Shown one piece after another: positions 26,414 through 32,879 of a DNA stretch of 64,000 bases. A program made the position numbers and the translations under genes. Below the pieces are notes generated by a model. That model worked only from the letters and a program-made list of their open reading frames with translations. It was not told the DNA's origin and made no database searches. Source of the stretch: Bacteroidales bacterium (lineage in GTDB: Bacteria > Bacteroidota > Bacteroidia > Bacteroidales > JAADJA01); contig JAGVPB010000014.1 in the NCBI GenBank assembly GCA_020052415.1, forward strand, positions 1 through 64,000. Direction: 5' to 3'. Within the stretch, counting starts at the first letter, position 1. Each line of letters opens with the position of its first letter.

Positions 26414-26462
26414 TGGTTTGAAGAAAGCAGAGGAATATAAACAAGCGTTTAAAATTATAACA

Positions 26463-26711
26463 ATGAGTACAAAAAATAAAATATTACACCTTCCAATACT
26501 TGTAGAGCAGGACGAAGACAATGTTTACATCGTGAGTTGCCCTGTTTTCAAGAGTTGCCACTCATACGGAAAAACTATTGAAGAAGCATTGGTGAACATC
26601 AAAGAGGTTATTGATATGTGCATTGATGAAGAAAAAGAAAAGGTTTCCGAGATCAATCGTTTTGTTGGCTTCAGGGAAATGAAAGTTTCTTTAAAGACCA
26701 AAGTCGTTTAA
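26463..26711 (+). CDS. hicB: HicB-family antitoxin
   Basis: From the ATG at 26463 the protein has 82 residues; an upstream TTG at 26418 would add 15 non-conserved residues. It shows the HicB partial RNase-H-like fold: a strand (HLPILVEQDEDNVYIVSCP), then CHSYGKTIEEALVNIKEVIDMC, where YGKT.EEAL.NI.E is the family signature. There is no C-terminal DNA-binding domain beyond a short tail. It neutralises HicA, whose gene begins 10 bases downstream. This is the reverse (hicB-hicA) order. Confidence 0.82.
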   Translation: MSTKNKILHLPILVEQDEDNVYIVSCPVFKSCHSYGKTIEEALVNIKEVIDMCIDEEKEKVSEINRFVGFREMKVSLKTKVV

Positions 26712-26721
26712 TATTTATTTT

Positions 26722-26961
26722 ATGCCCCAACTGCCAGTAATTTCCGGTAAAGATTTTATCAGGTTCCTGCAAACGCTTGGATTTATCGTTGTCCGTGTCA
26801 ATGGTTCCCATTTCCGACTTAAACATCCCGATGGCCGGGTTACAACAGTTCCGGTACACAAAAACGATAACCTACCTAAAGGATTGATGCGTAAAATAAT
26901 CCGTGAAGATTTGGGCTTGAAACTGGATGAATTCCTCAGCCTGCATAAGCAATACAAATAA
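26722..26961 (+). CDS. hicA: HicA-family mRNA interferase toxin
   Basis: The 79-residue protein has the dsRBD-like HicA fold: SGKDFIRFLQTLGFIVVRVNGSHFRLKHPDGR, with the catalytic His in the GSH turn (about residue 34), then VTTVPVHKNDNLPKGLMRKIIREDLGL, the usual 'VPVH....L..G....I....GL' end. It cleaves mRNA when released from HicB. Length and motifs are complete, so the toxin should be active. It is co-transcribed with hicB. Confidence 0.88.
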   Translation: MPQLPVISGKDFIRFLQTLGFIVVRVNGSHFRLKHPDGRVTTVPVHKNDNLPKGLMRKIIREDLGLKLDEFLSLHKQYK

Positions 26962-27210
26962 AAAGTCTAAAAACTGCGAACAATGGAACCGCCGAAGTAT
27001 TAAATACATATATTTTGATTTTATCACCACTCAAGTCAAAGCAGCTTTCGGCGTTGACCAATATTAATGAAAATAACGTTTTCCCGTTAATATCGGCGAT
27101 TTCAATCAGCCAAAGTAAAATGAGAAGTCAGAAAACACTTACGGCTGGTAAAAAAGTTACCGATTTAACTTTTTTTTTCAACTAAGGAATTCATTTCCCT
27201 GCCAATTCCA

Positions 27211-27218
27211 TACTTTTG
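27211..27218 (+). promoter_or_regulatory. -7 box TACTTTTG of gatE-gatD
   Basis: This is an exact TAnnTTTG match 31 bases before the gatE start. The -33 element is not clear. Confidence 0.5.
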
Positions 27219-27249: not shown

Positions 27250-29220
27250 ATGCAACGAAAATTTGACACTATAAAGAATTACCAGGCAACCCGTGAAACC
27301 ATTGGATATGTAACCAGGAAAATGGCAACACAGGAAGATTATGACCGTATCGGCTTCATGTCGGGACTGGAAGTGCATCAGCAGCTTAAAACAAAGCATA
27401 AGCTCTTTTGTAAATGTCCTGCAGGAATTTACCAGAACCTGGAAAATTATGATGCTGAAATAATCCGGCACATGCGCCCTACCCTGAGTGAGCTAGGAGA
27501 ATACGACGGCACTGCTCTGATGGAATTCAAAACAAGAAAGGAGATCGTTTACCACCTGTCGAATGATTCCGCATGCACCTATGATATTGACGATACTCCA
27601 CCCTTTAAATTGAATGCCGAAGCCCTTGAAATTGCGATAAAAATTTCCCATCTCTCCAAACTTAATATCGTCGGTGAAGTTCACATTACCCGGAAACAGT
27701 ACCTCGACGGAAGCATCCCAACGGGCTTTCAAAGAACCGGGATCATCGGCGTTGAAGGAGTAATTCAGCTTCCGCATAAAAAGATAAGGCTGATCCAGCT
27801 AAGCCTTGAAGAAGATTCCTGCCGCGAGGTTTCCGACATCGGCCACCGGCGTGTTTACCGAACCGACAGGCTTGGCATGCCTTTGATTGAAACAGTCACT
27901 TATCCCGACTGTGTGAACCCGTATGAAGTTATGGAAACCAATAATTATATACGTTTTCTAAACCGGAGTACAGGTTTGGTAAGAACCGGGATCGGAGCAG
28001 GCAGGCAGGATGTAAATGTCAGTTGCAGGGGTGGATCACGGGTCGAAATTAAAGGCGTGGCTCATACCAAATGGATACCCGAACTCACACATAATGAAGC
28101 TTTTCGTCAGTGGTCGCTGCTTCATATAAAAAAACTTCTCTGTGTTAAGGTTCAAAAAATCGCTGACTGGAAAATTCATCATATTGAACTTAATGGAATT
28201 TTCAAATCGAAAAATCCAATACTGAAGGAAGCTTTCCTTAAAAAAATAAAAGTAATCGCGGTAAATCTCAATGGATTCAAAGGAATTCTATCGCATTTTA
28301 CACAGCCTGGCAAAATGTTCGCCAACGAAATTGAAGAGCGCCTGAAAGTGATTGCCTGCCTCGAAAGGCCATTCATGTTACATTCCGAGGAATTTGAACC
28401 GGTTATTAGTAAAGATGAATGGGCAGAAATCTCCGATTTGCTGAGCGCCGGACCGGACGACGCCCACCTGGTTTTTTGGGGTCCTGACGATGATATCAAA
28501 ACCGCGCTTGAAACTATTGAAGAAAGATGTCTGATGGCTTTTGACAGGGTGCCCAATGAAACCAGAAAATCTTTTGAAAACGGAACTACTATTTTTGAAA
28601 GGGTGTTGCCGGGAGCCGACCGTATGTATCCAGATACCGATTCCTCCCCTATTCCGCTGGACAATGAATATATCGAAGAGCTCAGAAAAGATATACCTGC
28701 AGATATCATTGATCGTGTAAATCAGTTGAGAAAATGGAAAATCCCGCAGGATACCTATACTTACATTTTAAGCAAGAATCACTACCGGCTGCTGGGACGC
28801 ATCATCTCCGAACTCGAAATTGATCCTGTTTTTGCAGGGACATTTATCGGCCACAGGCTTAAATTTGTTGAAGGGCATTACAAGTCGGCAGAAGCCTTTA
28901 ACTGTAAGATAGTATATGCCATGTTCCGCTTTTTAAAGCAGCAGAATCTCGATTTTGAACTCGCCGATAAAATGATCCCGGTTCTCTATGAATTTCCAAA
29001 GATGGATTTCGAATCGGTGCTCGCAAGCATCGGATTTAAAAGGATACCGAAAGATGAAATTTTATCGCATCTGCCTTTCCTCAAAAATAAATTTGCTGAA
29101 ACAGCCAAATCCAACAATGCAACGAACCTGATCAACTGGATCATGGGAGAGCTGAGGGAAGAAGCGCTGGGGAATATTTCGCTTAAGGAATTGGCAGAAC
29201 ACATTAAAAACAACAATTAA
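27250..29220 (+). CDS. gatE: Archaeal-type Glu-tRNA(Gln) amidotransferase subunit E
   Basis: GatE is the kinase/transamidase and tRNA-binding subunit of the GatDE enzyme that turns Glu-tRNA(Gln) into Gln-tRNA(Gln). It has 656 residues. The catalytic GatB/E core carries GLEVHQQL (39-46), a CxC zinc half-site (Cys54, Cys56), EYDGTALMEF and YLDGSIPTGFQRT (151-163). A GAD insertion (about 300-410: VNLNGFKGILSHFTQPGKMFANEI), which is specific to GatE and absent from GatB, separates the core from the helical/YqeY-like tail. An N-terminal extension of about 33 residues precedes the core; an ATG at 27322 would remove most of it. gatD follows after 7 bases. The family is normally archaeal, so a bacteroidete copy is unusual. 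Confidence 0.9.
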   Translation: MQRKFDTIKNYQATRETIGYVTRKMATQEDYDRIGFMSGLEVHQQLKTKHKLFCKCPAGIYQNLENYDAEIIRHMRPTLSELGEYDGTALMEFKTRKEIVYHLSNDSACTYDIDDTPPFKLNAEALEIAIKISHLSKLNIVGEVHITRKQYLDGSIPTGFQRTGIIGVEGVIQLPHKKIRLIQLSLEEDSCREVSDIGHRRVYRTDRLGMPLIETVTYPDCVNPYEVMETNNYIRFLNRSTGLVRTGIGAGRQDVNVSCRGGSRVEIKGVAHTKWIPELTHNEAFRQWSLLHIKKLLCVKVQKIADWKIHHIELNGIFKSKNPILKEAFLKKIKVIAVNLNGFKGILSHFTQPGKMFANEIEERLKVIACLERPFMLHSEEFEPVISKDEWAEISDLLSAGPDDAHLVFWGPDDDIKTALETIEERCLMAFDRVPNETRKSFENGTTIFERVLPGADRMYPDTDSSPIPLDNEYIEELRKDIPADIIDRVNQLRKWKIPQDTYTYILSKNHYRLLGRIISELEIDPVFAGTFIGHRLKFVEGHYKSAEAFNCKIVYAMFRFLKQQNLDFELADKMIPVLYEFPKMDFESVLASIGFKRIPKDEILSHLPFLKNKFAETAKSNNATNLINWIMGELREEALGNISLKELAEHIKNNN

Positions 29221-29227
29221 TTCAACT

Positions 29228-30613
29228 ATGACACAGGATTTTTTCCAGGGATACAAGGGCGAATCATTGGGCGTACTAAAAAAATATAACGTCAGGGTGT
29301 GGGGGCAGGCTGAAATTTTTACGATACGCGGGCCTTTTAGCGGAACCGTATTGCCCCGGTCAGAAAATGACGACGACCAGCATATCGTAATTAAAATTGC
29401 GACCGGCTATAATATCGGGATTGATATTAAGACCATCACCGGCATGAAGGAAACCGGTTATAAAAAAGCCGTTTACAAGATTCCGGAAAAGGAATTTCCT
29501 GTCACTCCGGGACTGCCAAGAGTAAAGCTGTTCGGAACCGGAGGAACCATCGCCTCACGTCTTGATTATCGTACCGGGGCCGTTATTCCGGCATTCTCAC
29601 CCGGTGAACTCTATGGTGCCGTTCCCGAACTTGCCGATATCTGCAACCTGGATACCGAAAAGGTATTTGCGGTTTTCAGCGAAAACATGGGCCCAAAACA
29701 GTATATAGCTCTTGCCAAAGCCATCGGAAAGGAAATTGAAAACGGAATTGACGGCATTGTGATCGGGCATGGAACAGATACTCTTCATCATACCGGGGCA
29801 GTTCTCACATTTATGGTTCAGAACCCGCCGGTTCCGATTGTCCTTGTAGGATCGCAGAGGTCCTCCGACCGGCCGAGTTCCGATGCTGCAACCAACCTGA
29901 TGAATGCGATGTACACTGCCGGACATGGCGATATTGCAGAAGTGATGGTGTGCATGTTCGGGCCGACCTCCGACGTTTATGGATTACTTCACCGGGGAAC
30001 AAGGGTGAGGAAAATGCATTCATCCTACCGGTCAACTTTTCGAACCATAGGTGATACACCGGTTGCGAGAGTGAGGCGGGGTGAACTCATTCATTTCAAG
30101 AAAGACTATAAACCAAGGCGGAAGGACAAGGACGTAAAGATAATACCCTATTTCAACGACCAGGTAACCATGCTGTATTATTATCCCGGTATTAAGCCTG
30201 ATACTATTGATATGCTCGTGGAAGCCGGTTACAAAGGGATCATCATCGTCGGAACCGGTTTGGGCCATGTGAACAAGGAACTTTATCCTGCTATTGAAAG
30301 AGCTCATGCCAAAGGCGTTCACATGTTTATGACCCTGCAAACCATCTGGGGCTATGTTCACATGTTCGTATATGATACAGGACGGGATATGATGGCCAAG
30401 GGAATCATTCCGTGTGGAAATATGTTGCCCGAAGTCGCATGGGTTAAGTTAAGCTGGATATTAGGTCAGACCGACGATCCGGCAGAAGTAAAACGGATGA
30501 TGCTGACCCCGGTAAATGATGAGATCACCGACAGAGAACCTTATAATGGCTATTTGGTTTACCAGGGCGGAGTGCCTGCCGTTGAGGAATTCATCCGAAG
30601 GGTGCATAAATAA
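29228..30613 (+). CDS. gatD: Archaeal-type Glu-tRNA(Gln) amidotransferase subunit D (asparaginase-like)
   Basis: GatD is the amidase subunit that frees ammonia from Gln or Asn for GatE. It has 461 residues. An N-terminal beta domain (about 1-90), absent from plain asparaginases, marks GatD. The type-I asparaginase core has GTGGTIAS (103-110; Thr104), HGTDTLHHT (181-189; Thr183, Asp184) and Lys262 in RKMHSSY, giving the Thr-Thr-Asp-Lys catalytic set. It lies 7 bases after gatE, in one operon, and is followed by a bidirectional terminator. A plain L-asparaginase is excluded by the N-terminal domain and the partner gene. Confidence 0.9.
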   Translation: MTQDFFQGYKGESLGVLKKYNVRVWGQAEIFTIRGPFSGTVLPRSENDDDQHIVIKIATGYNIGIDIKTITGMKETGYKKAVYKIPEKEFPVTPGLPRVKLFGTGGTIASRLDYRTGAVIPAFSPGELYGAVPELADICNLDTEKVFAVFSENMGPKQYIALAKAIGKEIENGIDGIVIGHGTDTLHHTGAVLTFMVQNPPVPIVLVGSQRSSDRPSSDAATNLMNAMYTAGHGDIAEVMVCMFGPTSDVYGLLHRGTRVRKMHSSYRSTFRTIGDTPVARVRRGELIHFKKDYKPRRKDKDVKIIPYFNDQVTMLYYYPGIKPDTIDMLVEAGYKGIIIVGTGLGHVNKELYPAIERAHAKGVHMFMTLQTIWGYVHMFVYDTGRDMMAKGIIPCGNMLPEVAWVKLSWILGQTDDPAEVKRMMLTPVNDEITDREPYNGYLVYQGGVPAVEEFIRRVHK

Positions 30614-30671: not shown

Positions 30672-31802
30672 TTATTCTAATACAAATATATTCTTCTTAG
30701 CACAAATCCGCTTTAGCTCATCAGGCCATACGCTGACCGTTACTTCCCCAAGATGTGCTGCCCGGAGCAAATACATATAGGTTCGTGACTGACCTATTCC
30801 ACCACCGATACTCAGCGGAATCTTATCATTTAATATTGCCTGGTGATAAGGCAGCTTAAGAAAATCAAGCTGGTTAGAAATCGTAAGCTGCTGTTTCATG
30901 GTGTCTTTGGTTACTCTGATGCCCATCGAGGAAAGCTCATGCCTTCTCTTCGTAACCGGATTCCAAACCAGAATGTCGCCATTCAGTCCGTGCATTTCAG
31001 TGCCATTCTTTGTAATGGTTGGGGTTACCCAGTCATCATAGTCGGCAGCGCGCATCTCATGCGGATAGCCATCCTTCAGAACCCAGCCAATGCCGATGAT
31101 GAAAATGGCATTGTGATACTCCTGGATAACCTTTGTTTCCCTTTGTTTACGTGGTAAATCAGGATACATTTCCAGGATTTCTTCGGCGTGTAAAAACTTC
31201 AGTTCTTCAGGGAAATCAGGATATTTACTATTCCTTAATTCCGGGAAATTTTCTTTTGCCATTTGTCCGGCGCCATATAAAACTTTCCAGATCTTTCTTA
31301 CAATGTCTTTCAGGAAATCGAGGTTACGCTGATCGGCAGTCATAACTCTTTCCCAATCCCACTGATCCACGTATGATGAATGGTCATGATCGAGGAAATA
31401 ATCTTTACGAACCGCCCTCATGTCGGTATTAATACCTTCACCCACCTTGCATCCGAATTGCTTCAAAGCCATTCTTTTCCATTTTGTTGCAGCCTGAACA
31501 ACCTGCGCTTCTATTCGTTTTTCGAGACCCAGTCCACAAGGGAAATCAATGGGTGTGCGTGAGCCATCGCGGTCGAGGTAATCATTAACTCCGCTGTCTT
31601 TGCTCACGATCAGAGGCACCTGTACCATCTGTATGTTGAGTTCTTTGGCAAGATTCTCTTCAATATAGTTTTTAACCATATAAAGAGCTTTCATTCTTTT
31701 TAATGGCGGCAACAGTGGAACATAATCCGCCGGAAGTATTTTCTCGACTTCCTCATAAGTGCTTATACCCGGACCAGCCAGGTCGGCTTTTTTATCTGAC
31801 AT
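30672..31802 (-). CDS. asnA: Aspartate--ammonia ligase (asparagine synthetase A)
   Basis: AsnA makes asparagine from aspartate, ammonia and ATP by a fold related to class II aminoacyl-tRNA synthetases. The 376 residues include LIVSKDSGVNDYLDRDGSR, MRAVRKDYFLDHDHSSYVDQWDWE and the C-terminal IGGGIGQSR (motif-3-like, ATP-binding Arg). It has about 20-45 more residues than the E. coli enzyme, mostly at the N-terminus and in the middle. It converges on gatED. The gene has a rare strong Shine-Dalgarno sequence. Ammonia-dependent synthesis next to an Asn/Gln-using GatD is a suggestive pairing but is not proof of linkage. Confidence 0.93.
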   Translation of the reverse strand: MSDKKADLAGPGISTYEEVEKILPADYVPLLPPLKRMKALYMVKNYIEENLAKELNIQMVQVPLIVSKDSGVNDYLDRDGSRTPIDFPCGLGLEKRIEAQVVQAATKWKRMALKQFGCKVGEGINTDMRAVRKDYFLDHDHSSYVDQWDWERVMTADQRNLDFLKDIVRKIWKVLYGAGQMAKENFPELRNSKYPDFPEELKFLHAEEILEMYPDLPRKQRETKVIQEYHNAIFIIGIGWVLKDGYPHEMRAADYDDWVTPTITKNGTEMHGLNGDILVWNPVTKRRHELSSMGIRVTKDTMKQQLTISNQLDFLKLPYHQAILNDKIPLSIGGGIGQSRTYMYLLRAAHLGEVTVSVWPDELKRICAKKNIFVLE

Positions 31803-31815: not shown

Positions 31816-31948
31816 AATTTTTAATTGAATTGTAAATTTTATGAAAATTAAACGGCGCCTAAAGTATGTCACATATTTTAATATTCCAAGTTTTACAGAA
31901 AATTTTGTTCGGCAACAGTTTGAATGATTATTTTTGGCTGTAAATTAT

Positions 31949-32078
31949 GAGTCCACTCCGAAAAGTGTTGCGGAACGTCATTGCGAAGGCGAAGCCTGAA
32001 GCTATCTGTTGATCTACAATACATACGGATTGCTTCACTACGTTCGCAATGACGATGAACGACTTTTCGGAATGACTC
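31949..32078. repeat. MITE-like inverted repeat, family 1 (copy with CATTGCGA interior)
   Basis: The outer arms are GAGTCCACTCCGAAAAGT (31949-31966) and ACTTTTCGGAATGACTC (ending 32078). The inner arms are CGTCATTGCGAAGGCGAAGC and the complementary GTTCGCAATGACG. Reading through it produces a false peptide of the well-known 'CERSEAI' type. Confidence 0.7.
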
Positions 32079-32096
32079 AAAAACAAACAACAGATT

Positions 32097-32879
32097 ATGA
32101 GATATACAGCATTTACCAAGGTTTTGGTCGCAACCCTGTTCGTTTTTACATCGGTTGTTTCCATAAGTCAGATTACTCTTGATCATACTTATACCGGCTG
32201 GGCTTCGATGTCGAATCTTGCAATTTCAGGATACAAATATCATGTGCTTGATACTGAAACCAAAACGCTTAAACTGTATAACATCAACCATTCCTTGTGG
32301 AAAACAGTTAATTTATCTGTTCCTGCAGGTTATACTCTGTTGACATCGGTTTATAATGTTTCAGAAAATTTATTCAGCCTTGACGGAAAAGTGGGATTCA
32401 CCTATTCCTATTACCAGACAACACCAAGCGTACAGTATGAAACACGTGTGATCAATGAAAACGGAACAATACTTCTTACCATTGCAGGTGCTACCTATGC
32501 TTATGCTTATGAAGTTGATGGAGAAGCAAAACTTCTTGCATACATTACCAACTACACCAGCAGTACAACAACCACCAAAGTTTTTGACCTTCCGGGTGAT
32601 TTGACGACAAATGTCGTCAGTTTAACTTCTGAAAGCCGGCTTCCCTTTCCAAATCCTGCGATTGATGGCATCACGATCCCGTATCCCGCAAATGAAATGA
32701 CTGAAGGCGGTGAAATCCGGGTTTTCAATTCAGGAGGCCAGTTAATGAAATCGTTCCAGGTTGATCAAACTTTCAATCACATCATCATCCGGCCGGGCAT
32801 GTTGTCCTCCGGCGTTTATCATTATAAAATACTTAATTCCACAGGCGAACTGGATGCAGGGAGTTTTGTGGTGCGGTGA
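32097..32879 (+). CDS. Secreted protein with T9SS type A sorting domain
   Basis: This 260-residue protein has a signal peptide (about 1-25). A beta-rich N-terminal part with no recognised family (about 26-175) is followed by a T9SS C-terminal domain (about 180-260): PFPNPAIDGITI, then GEIRVFNSGGQLMKSF, and SSGVYHYKILNSTGELDAGSFVV ending in Arg. It would be exported through the type IX system and anchored on the surface. The last third of the gene, and DNA beyond its stop, is duplicated at 34680-35015. TGA is the stop here. Confidence 0.75.
   Translation: MRYTAFTKVLVATLFVFTSVVSISQITLDHTYTGWASMSNLAISGYKYHVLDTETKTLKLYNINHSLWKTVNLSVPAGYTLLTSVYNVSENLFSLDGKVGFTYSYYQTTPSVQYETRVINENGTILLTIAGATYAYAYEVDGEAKLLAYITNYTSSTTTTKVFDLPGDLTTNVVSLTSESRLPFPNPAIDGITIPYPANEMTEGGEIRVFNSGGQLMKSFQVDQTFNHIIIRPGMLSSGVYHYKILNSTGELDAGSFVVR

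Follow-up and report, generated by a model that had tools for sequence, protein, structure and literature searches.

The window considered here, 64,000 nucleotides of contig JAGVPB010000014.1 from a Bacteroidales genome (assembly GCA_020052415.1), carries a two-gene operon on its + strand, gatE followed after 7 bases by gatD, whose products resemble the two subunits of GatDE, the amidotransferase of archaeal Gln-tRNA synthesis. Reviews of 2021 and 2022 confine GatDE to archaea (PMC8007984, PMC9499178), in keeping with an earlier note on this DNA that had singled out the pair as an archaeal system in a bacterium. No report of bacterial GatDE was found in the open-access literature searched; automatic NCBI annotation probably already uses these names. 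The pair and its landmarks are as follows.

27250..29220, + strand: gatE, ATG start, a 656-aa amidotransferase subunit of the GatB/GatE family, identified by profile scores, fold and substitution rates
27409..27417, + strand: CxC motif of GatE (C54, C56), invariant in 66/66 bacterial GatEs
28165..28545, + strand: GAD insertion domain of GatE (residues 306-432), by structure match to the GAD domain of AspRS
29038..29217, + strand: C-terminal YqeY-like tail of GatE (residues 597-656), by structure match
29228..30613, + strand: gatD, ATG start, a 461-aa asparaginase-like glutaminase subunit with a GatD N-terminal domain
29537..29539, + strand: codon of catalytic Thr104 of GatD, invariant in bacterial GatDs and in a motif common to the Pab and Mth proteins
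29774..29779, + strand: codons of catalytic Thr183-Asp184, invariant, with the same motif in archaeal GatD
30011..30013, + strand: codon of catalytic Lys262, invariant, with the same motif in archaeal GatD

Both genes are complete at these coordinates, as the earlier note had it, and both products exceed the cut-offs of NCBIfam equivalog models: against NF003107 GatE reaches 466 bits (cut-off 456) and against TIGR00134 394 bits (cut-off 320), while GatD, which also matches the Pfam GatD_N and Asparaginase domains, reaches 492 bits against TIGR02153 (cut-off 324). The closest solved structures for both subunits are the archaeal GatDE complexes 2d6f (Methanothermobacter thermautotrophicus) and 1zq1 (Pyrococcus abyssi). 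An AlphaFold2 model of GatE, built from 66 window and locus sequences (mean predicted local distance difference test score 89), matches the GatE of 2d6f, a GatE-tRNA(Gln) complex, with Z 35.9 over 508 residues. The CxC motif aligns with FCPC of the M. thermautotrophicus protein. The GAD insertion is real by predicted structure (Z about 9-11 against the AspRS insertion), although the Pfam GAD model finds no match in this protein; nor does the Pfam GatB_Yqey model match it, while residues 597-656 superimpose on YqeY with Z 7.0 and residues 484-656 on the N-terminal domain of GlnRS with Z 8.3. This tail region is the part of archaeal GatE that contacts tRNA. Where three GatBs and two archaeal GatEs are identical (46 columns), the window GatE keeps 37, including every polar residue of the catalytic core; the nine changed columns belong to the tail or to parts beyond the core. 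In GatD, T104, T183, D184 and K262 are invariant across 39 bacterial sequences and align with the matching motifs of both solved archaeal GatDs; the residue set and N-terminal domain read from the sequence at the outset stand. What sets the Bacteroidales proteins apart from archaeal GatDE, with which they share subunits, gene pair, domain order, catalytic residues and fold, is a GatE tail and GAD domain too diverged for Pfam and some 20 extra C-terminal residues in GatD.

On these grounds of family, residues and predicted fold, gatED probably encodes a genuine GatDE-type Glu-tRNA(Gln) amidotransferase that supplements GlnRS with a second route or a repair route; its enzymatic activity and substrate would be those of its family. 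In pairwise comparisons of bacterial relatives with unsaturated synonymous divergence (dS), the ratio of non-synonymous to synonymous substitution rates (dN/dS) spans 0.005-0.13 in gatD and 0.03-0.27 in gatE, which shows both genes to be, by this measure, under purifying selection.

How common the pair is was gauged in an even sample of 295 genomes of the order, presence being taken as a score above the profile cut-off. GatE is present in 122 (~40%), and the pair is found in a genome of 4.8 Mb that consists of one contig (G214), which upholds the earlier note's assertion that the locus is not contaminating DNA. Several genera (g2, g33, g35, g50 and g101) contain both GatE-positive and GatE-negative species, the latter having GlnRS; GatDE is therefore optional or dispensable, and has been repeatedly lost or gained. 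That patchiness, together with redundancy with GlnRS, is what could be said for regarding the pair as the relic of an old transfer that no longer has a function, or as archaeal contamination, but values of dN/dS far below 1, invariant catalytic residues and the finding of the pair both on closed chromosomes and in about two-fifths of the order leave that notion barely credible.

GlnRS, for its part, is found in 266 of the 295 genomes irrespective of GatDE. It is missing from 11/122 genomes with GatE and 18/173 without (counted by hand; Fisher p 0.84), and because its absence is equally frequent in the two groups, GatDE does not render GlnRS dispensable. The genome from which the window comes (4.67 Mb, 94 contigs, 97% complete) encodes an intact, full-length GlnRS (572 aa; 733 bits, TIGR00440), a single bacterial-type GluRS (487 bits, TIGR00464) and AsnRS (624 bits, TIGR00457). 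Profile searches of that genome found no amidase-family protein and no GatB match; with no amidase-family match it lacks GatA, and hence GatCAB. The survey of glnS and gatABC that the earlier note had proposed therefore shows GlnRS present and GatCAB missing. At a distance of 47 bases, glnS is followed by a tRNA-Gln(CTG) gene with A73 and no base 20a, whose U1-A72 and G12-C23 pairs are of bacterial type (the TTG isoacceptor was not seen); its identity bases, which the same note had thought worth inspecting, are not the A1-U72 and C12-G23 of archaeal tRNA-Gln (PMC9499178). With an intact glnS and a bacterial tRNA-Gln, the claim of an archaeal route to Gln-tRNA in this lineage fails for its own genome, where GatDE is at most an extra route.

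The model underlying that claim, in which the lineage obtains Gln-tRNA(Gln) mainly through GatDE and a non-discriminating GluRS, is accordingly highly improbable. It can draw on a few genomes with GatDE in which the searches found no GlnRS and no GatA: G075 (99% complete) and G034 (96%) in the order, and G712 and G718 beyond it. GlnRS is present, however, in species that are sisters to G075 and G034, and the equal rate of missing GlnRS without GatDE, like the full-length GlnRS of the window's own genome, speaks against it. Five other Bacteroidales genomes (G050, G089, G013, G085 and G191) apparently have GlnRS, a GatB-like protein and GatDE together.

Across the phylum, GatE occurs in 30 genomes of a 395-genome sample: the window's own and 29 outside its class, among them Ignavibacteria (G360); in the class's other orders, the genomes listed by the scan contained none. 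GlnRS accompanies GatE in 26 of the 29. The remaining three, Ignavibacteria-type genomes without full-length GlnRS (G543, G579 and G606), all have GatA, another point against GatDE as the main route; judged by gene content, they carry GatCAB instead. The family of G579 and G606 also has four GlnRS-bearing members without GatA. A scan of named genomes, from which the best 80 of 565 relatives were kept, extends the range to at least a dozen bacterial phyla, and among these best 80 there are only bacteria: by record title, Ignavibacteria, Kapabacteria, Aminicenantes, Phycisphaerae and other Planctomycetota, Neomarinimicrobiota, Krumholzibacteriota, KSB1, Fermentibacteria, CSSED10-310, Myxococcales, Gemmatimonadota, Latescibacterota, Caldisericia, Deltaproteobacteria and Acidobacteria. 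Some of these GatE genes lie on closed or megabase-scale contigs (CP054675, CP070718, CP070722 and JAGNLW010000001), so binning error does not explain bacterial GatDE. In 50 of the named genomes, GlnRS is above cut-off in 38 and GatA in 18. Three with GatDE, in which neither was found (G712, G718 and G687), are metagenome-assembled genomes (MAGs) of unestablished completeness, and as such leads rather than proof; three others (G702, G703 and G717) lack matches to GlnRS, GatA and even GluRS and are probably incomplete MAGs. The MAG G712 (Neomarinimicrobiota; loci L117 and L166), with GatDE, two GluRS genes and no GlnRS or GatA found, is by its gene content a candidate GatDE-dependent bacterium. 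The idea that a GlnRS-less Neomarinimicrobiota genome dedicates a GluRS to tRNA-Gln(TTG) was dropped, an ispE-like open reading frame (ORF) lying between the tRNA and the GluRS gene. In a record titled Deltaproteobacteria, a tRNA-Gln(CTG) gene stands immediately 5' of gatE (L142:3795-3866, - strand). Searches for carriage by phages or viruses returned only weak GatB-like matches in phage records and none in viral contigs.

Phylogeny, for which archaeal sampling consisted of two or three sequences, places the bacterial proteins with GatDE. In the GatE tree (77 rows) a fully supported branch separates GatB from GatE (74-row branch, 100), and GatD falls with archaeal GatD apart from the asparaginases (60-row branch, 96), the branches of the asparaginases being very long; the placement with GatB and ordinary asparaginase that the earlier note had named as a refutation does not occur. 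GatB and GatE share a catalytic cradle and a YqeY tail; GatE differs in its GAD insertion, in partnering GatD rather than GatA and GatC, and in its separate place in the tree. The bacterial GatEs stand together, opposite three archaeal rows, with support of 94 in the Shimodaira-Hasegawa-like approximate likelihood ratio test, or 96 when the long Natrinema row is left out. (An unannotated archaeal gatE on a Natrinema thermotolerans plasmid (L160) was recovered by tblastn in two pieces; its longest frame is only 476 aa and the gene may be broken.) Bacteroidales GatE is monophyletic (100) on a long stem, and the GatD tree likewise has one bacterial group (100) with monophyletic Bacteroidales (100), long branches calling for caution. 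A single acquisition common to Bacteroidales and Ignavibacteria/Kapabacteria is rejected by the approximately unbiased (AU) test (p 0.0002); a grouping of Bacteroidales with archaea is not (p 0.24), which leaves room for a separate archaeal origin. The broad bacterial distribution excludes a recent, isolated transfer into this lineage. As read from these sequences, bacterial GatDE is a broad clade, with transfers between bacterial phyla likely. The horizontal transfer that the earlier note had invoked is overstated, in that the trees do not depict one recent passage from archaea into this lineage.

The reaction expected of such an enzyme follows established GatDE biochemistry. GatD frees ammonia from glutamine (or asparagine), and GatE uses ATP to activate the Glu side chain of Glu-tRNA(Gln), which it then amidates. 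The Bacteroidales GatD would release ammonia from the same donors and its GatE would convert Glu-tRNA(Gln) to Gln-tRNA(Gln), the substrate arising from mischarging of tRNA-Gln by the single GluRS. Since the cell also has GlnRS, this route would be second and non-essential; GatDE may act in repair, as a back-up, or as a condition-dependent supply of Gln-tRNA. To our knowledge archaea have no GlnRS, and so do not combine it with GatDE; a bacterial host, the presence of GlnRS, separate GatE and GatD clades and a U1-A72 tRNA-Gln distinguish the system described here. The nearest parallel is GatCAB in Bdellovibrio, Deinococcus and Thermus, where an amidotransferase is likewise retained despite direct synthetases (GlnRS and AsnRS) and is explained by Asn-tRNA or asparagine synthesis (PMC4206432). 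For GatDE we know of no role other than in Gln-tRNA formation, and for that reason the Asn explanation is not transferable to it.

Several facts weigh against a second Gln-tRNA route. If GluRS is discriminating, then with GlnRS also present there would be no Glu-tRNA(Gln) for GatDE to amidate. Archaeal GatDE reads A1-U72; with U1-A72 in the tRNA-Gln of this genome, recognition must differ from that of archaeal GatDE. The Arg358-equivalent residue of GluRS, considered as a marker of discrimination, is present in all sequences compared, from genomes with GatDE, without GatDE and without GlnRS alike, and because it is the same in all it is uninformative about discrimination. Comparison of GluRS sequences found no column that separates genomes with and without GatDE, and comparison of tRNA-Gln identity bases in the same two groups found no difference; neither of these two predictions of a division of labour gave a signal.

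That GatDE is instead re-purposed, amidating another aminoacyl-tRNA (e.g., Asp-tRNA(Asn)) or serving a non-ribosomal tRNA-dependent reaction in which it would not compete with GlnRS, is unlikely, though it has more to recommend it than the notions dealt with above. It would account for an enzyme that is mostly redundant for Gln-tRNA in well-covered genomes, for a tRNA-Gln without the archaeal A1-U72 element, and for the divergence of GatE, which between Bacteroidales and other phyla has fallen to ~40% identity, most strongly in its C-terminal third, as against ~65% for GatD. The core of catalytic and tRNA-binding domains is retained nevertheless, and the equivalog models are passed; AsnRS makes Asn-tRNA synthesis by GatDE redundant as well; and no conserved neighbour points to another pathway. 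The second-route reading can also be put in a wider form, which we hold only tentatively: that GatDE is an old and widespread second bacterial Gln-tRNA system, kept after GlnRS was acquired, with the work divided by condition, by isoacceptor or by correction of Glu-tRNA(Gln). If this is true, archaeal-only statements about amidotransferase evolution need revision; the history of amide-tRNA synthesis in PMC9499178 is built on GatDE being confined to archaea. Two questions become testable: what keeps a Gln-only amidotransferase in cells that already have GlnRS, and whether GatDE descends from early cells or has crossed from one domain to another. Annotations of GatE or GatD in bacterial MAGs, moreover, are not necessarily contamination.

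In many Bacteroidales a tRNA-Gln gene (mostly CTG) immediately follows glnS, often with tRNA-Cys on the other side (L001:1387-3222, L197-L256), and this linkage appears to erode within the order. It was seen in 15/31 loci from genomes with GatDE and 5/30 from genomes without. A GatDE-related function for it was considered and set aside, since sister species agree and the pattern looks like shared ancestry.

The surroundings of the operon offer two further features.

27211..27218, + strand: candidate Bacteroidetes -7 promoter box TACTTTTG, 31 bases before the gatE ATG, by sequence
30672-31802, - strand: asnA (aspartate-ammonia ligase), TIGR00669 292.1 bits, marginally below the 292.8 cut-off

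A -7 box does precede gatE, as the earlier note had it. With a background of about 0.6 occurrences of TANNTTTG per kb of the window, however, the box is weak evidence of a promoter. In 21 loci from different families the gatE-gatD pair is the sole conserved feature, with no recurrent neighbour; that the pair is kept together and its neighbours are not fits a self-sufficient module. In two loci (L042 and L046) a gene resembling secreted peptidases is inserted between gatE and gatD. With asnA convergent downstream of gatD, a hint of amide metabolism, and GatD the better conserved subunit, the pair might be imagined as mainly a tRNA-gated glutaminase/asparaginase of nitrogen metabolism; but the adjacency of asnA is not conserved among the 21 loci and the kinase-type core of GatE, not needed for such a task, is conserved, which makes this very improbable. 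Just 5' of gatE (window 26418-26962) lies a gene for a HicB-like antitoxin (Pfam PF15919), and behind it a small ORF (start ~26723) that looks HicA toxin-like by eye. On the far side, the translation of a short ORF (31893-32186, - strand) contains a stretch, CERSEAI...RLRNDV, like a dispersed repeat element.

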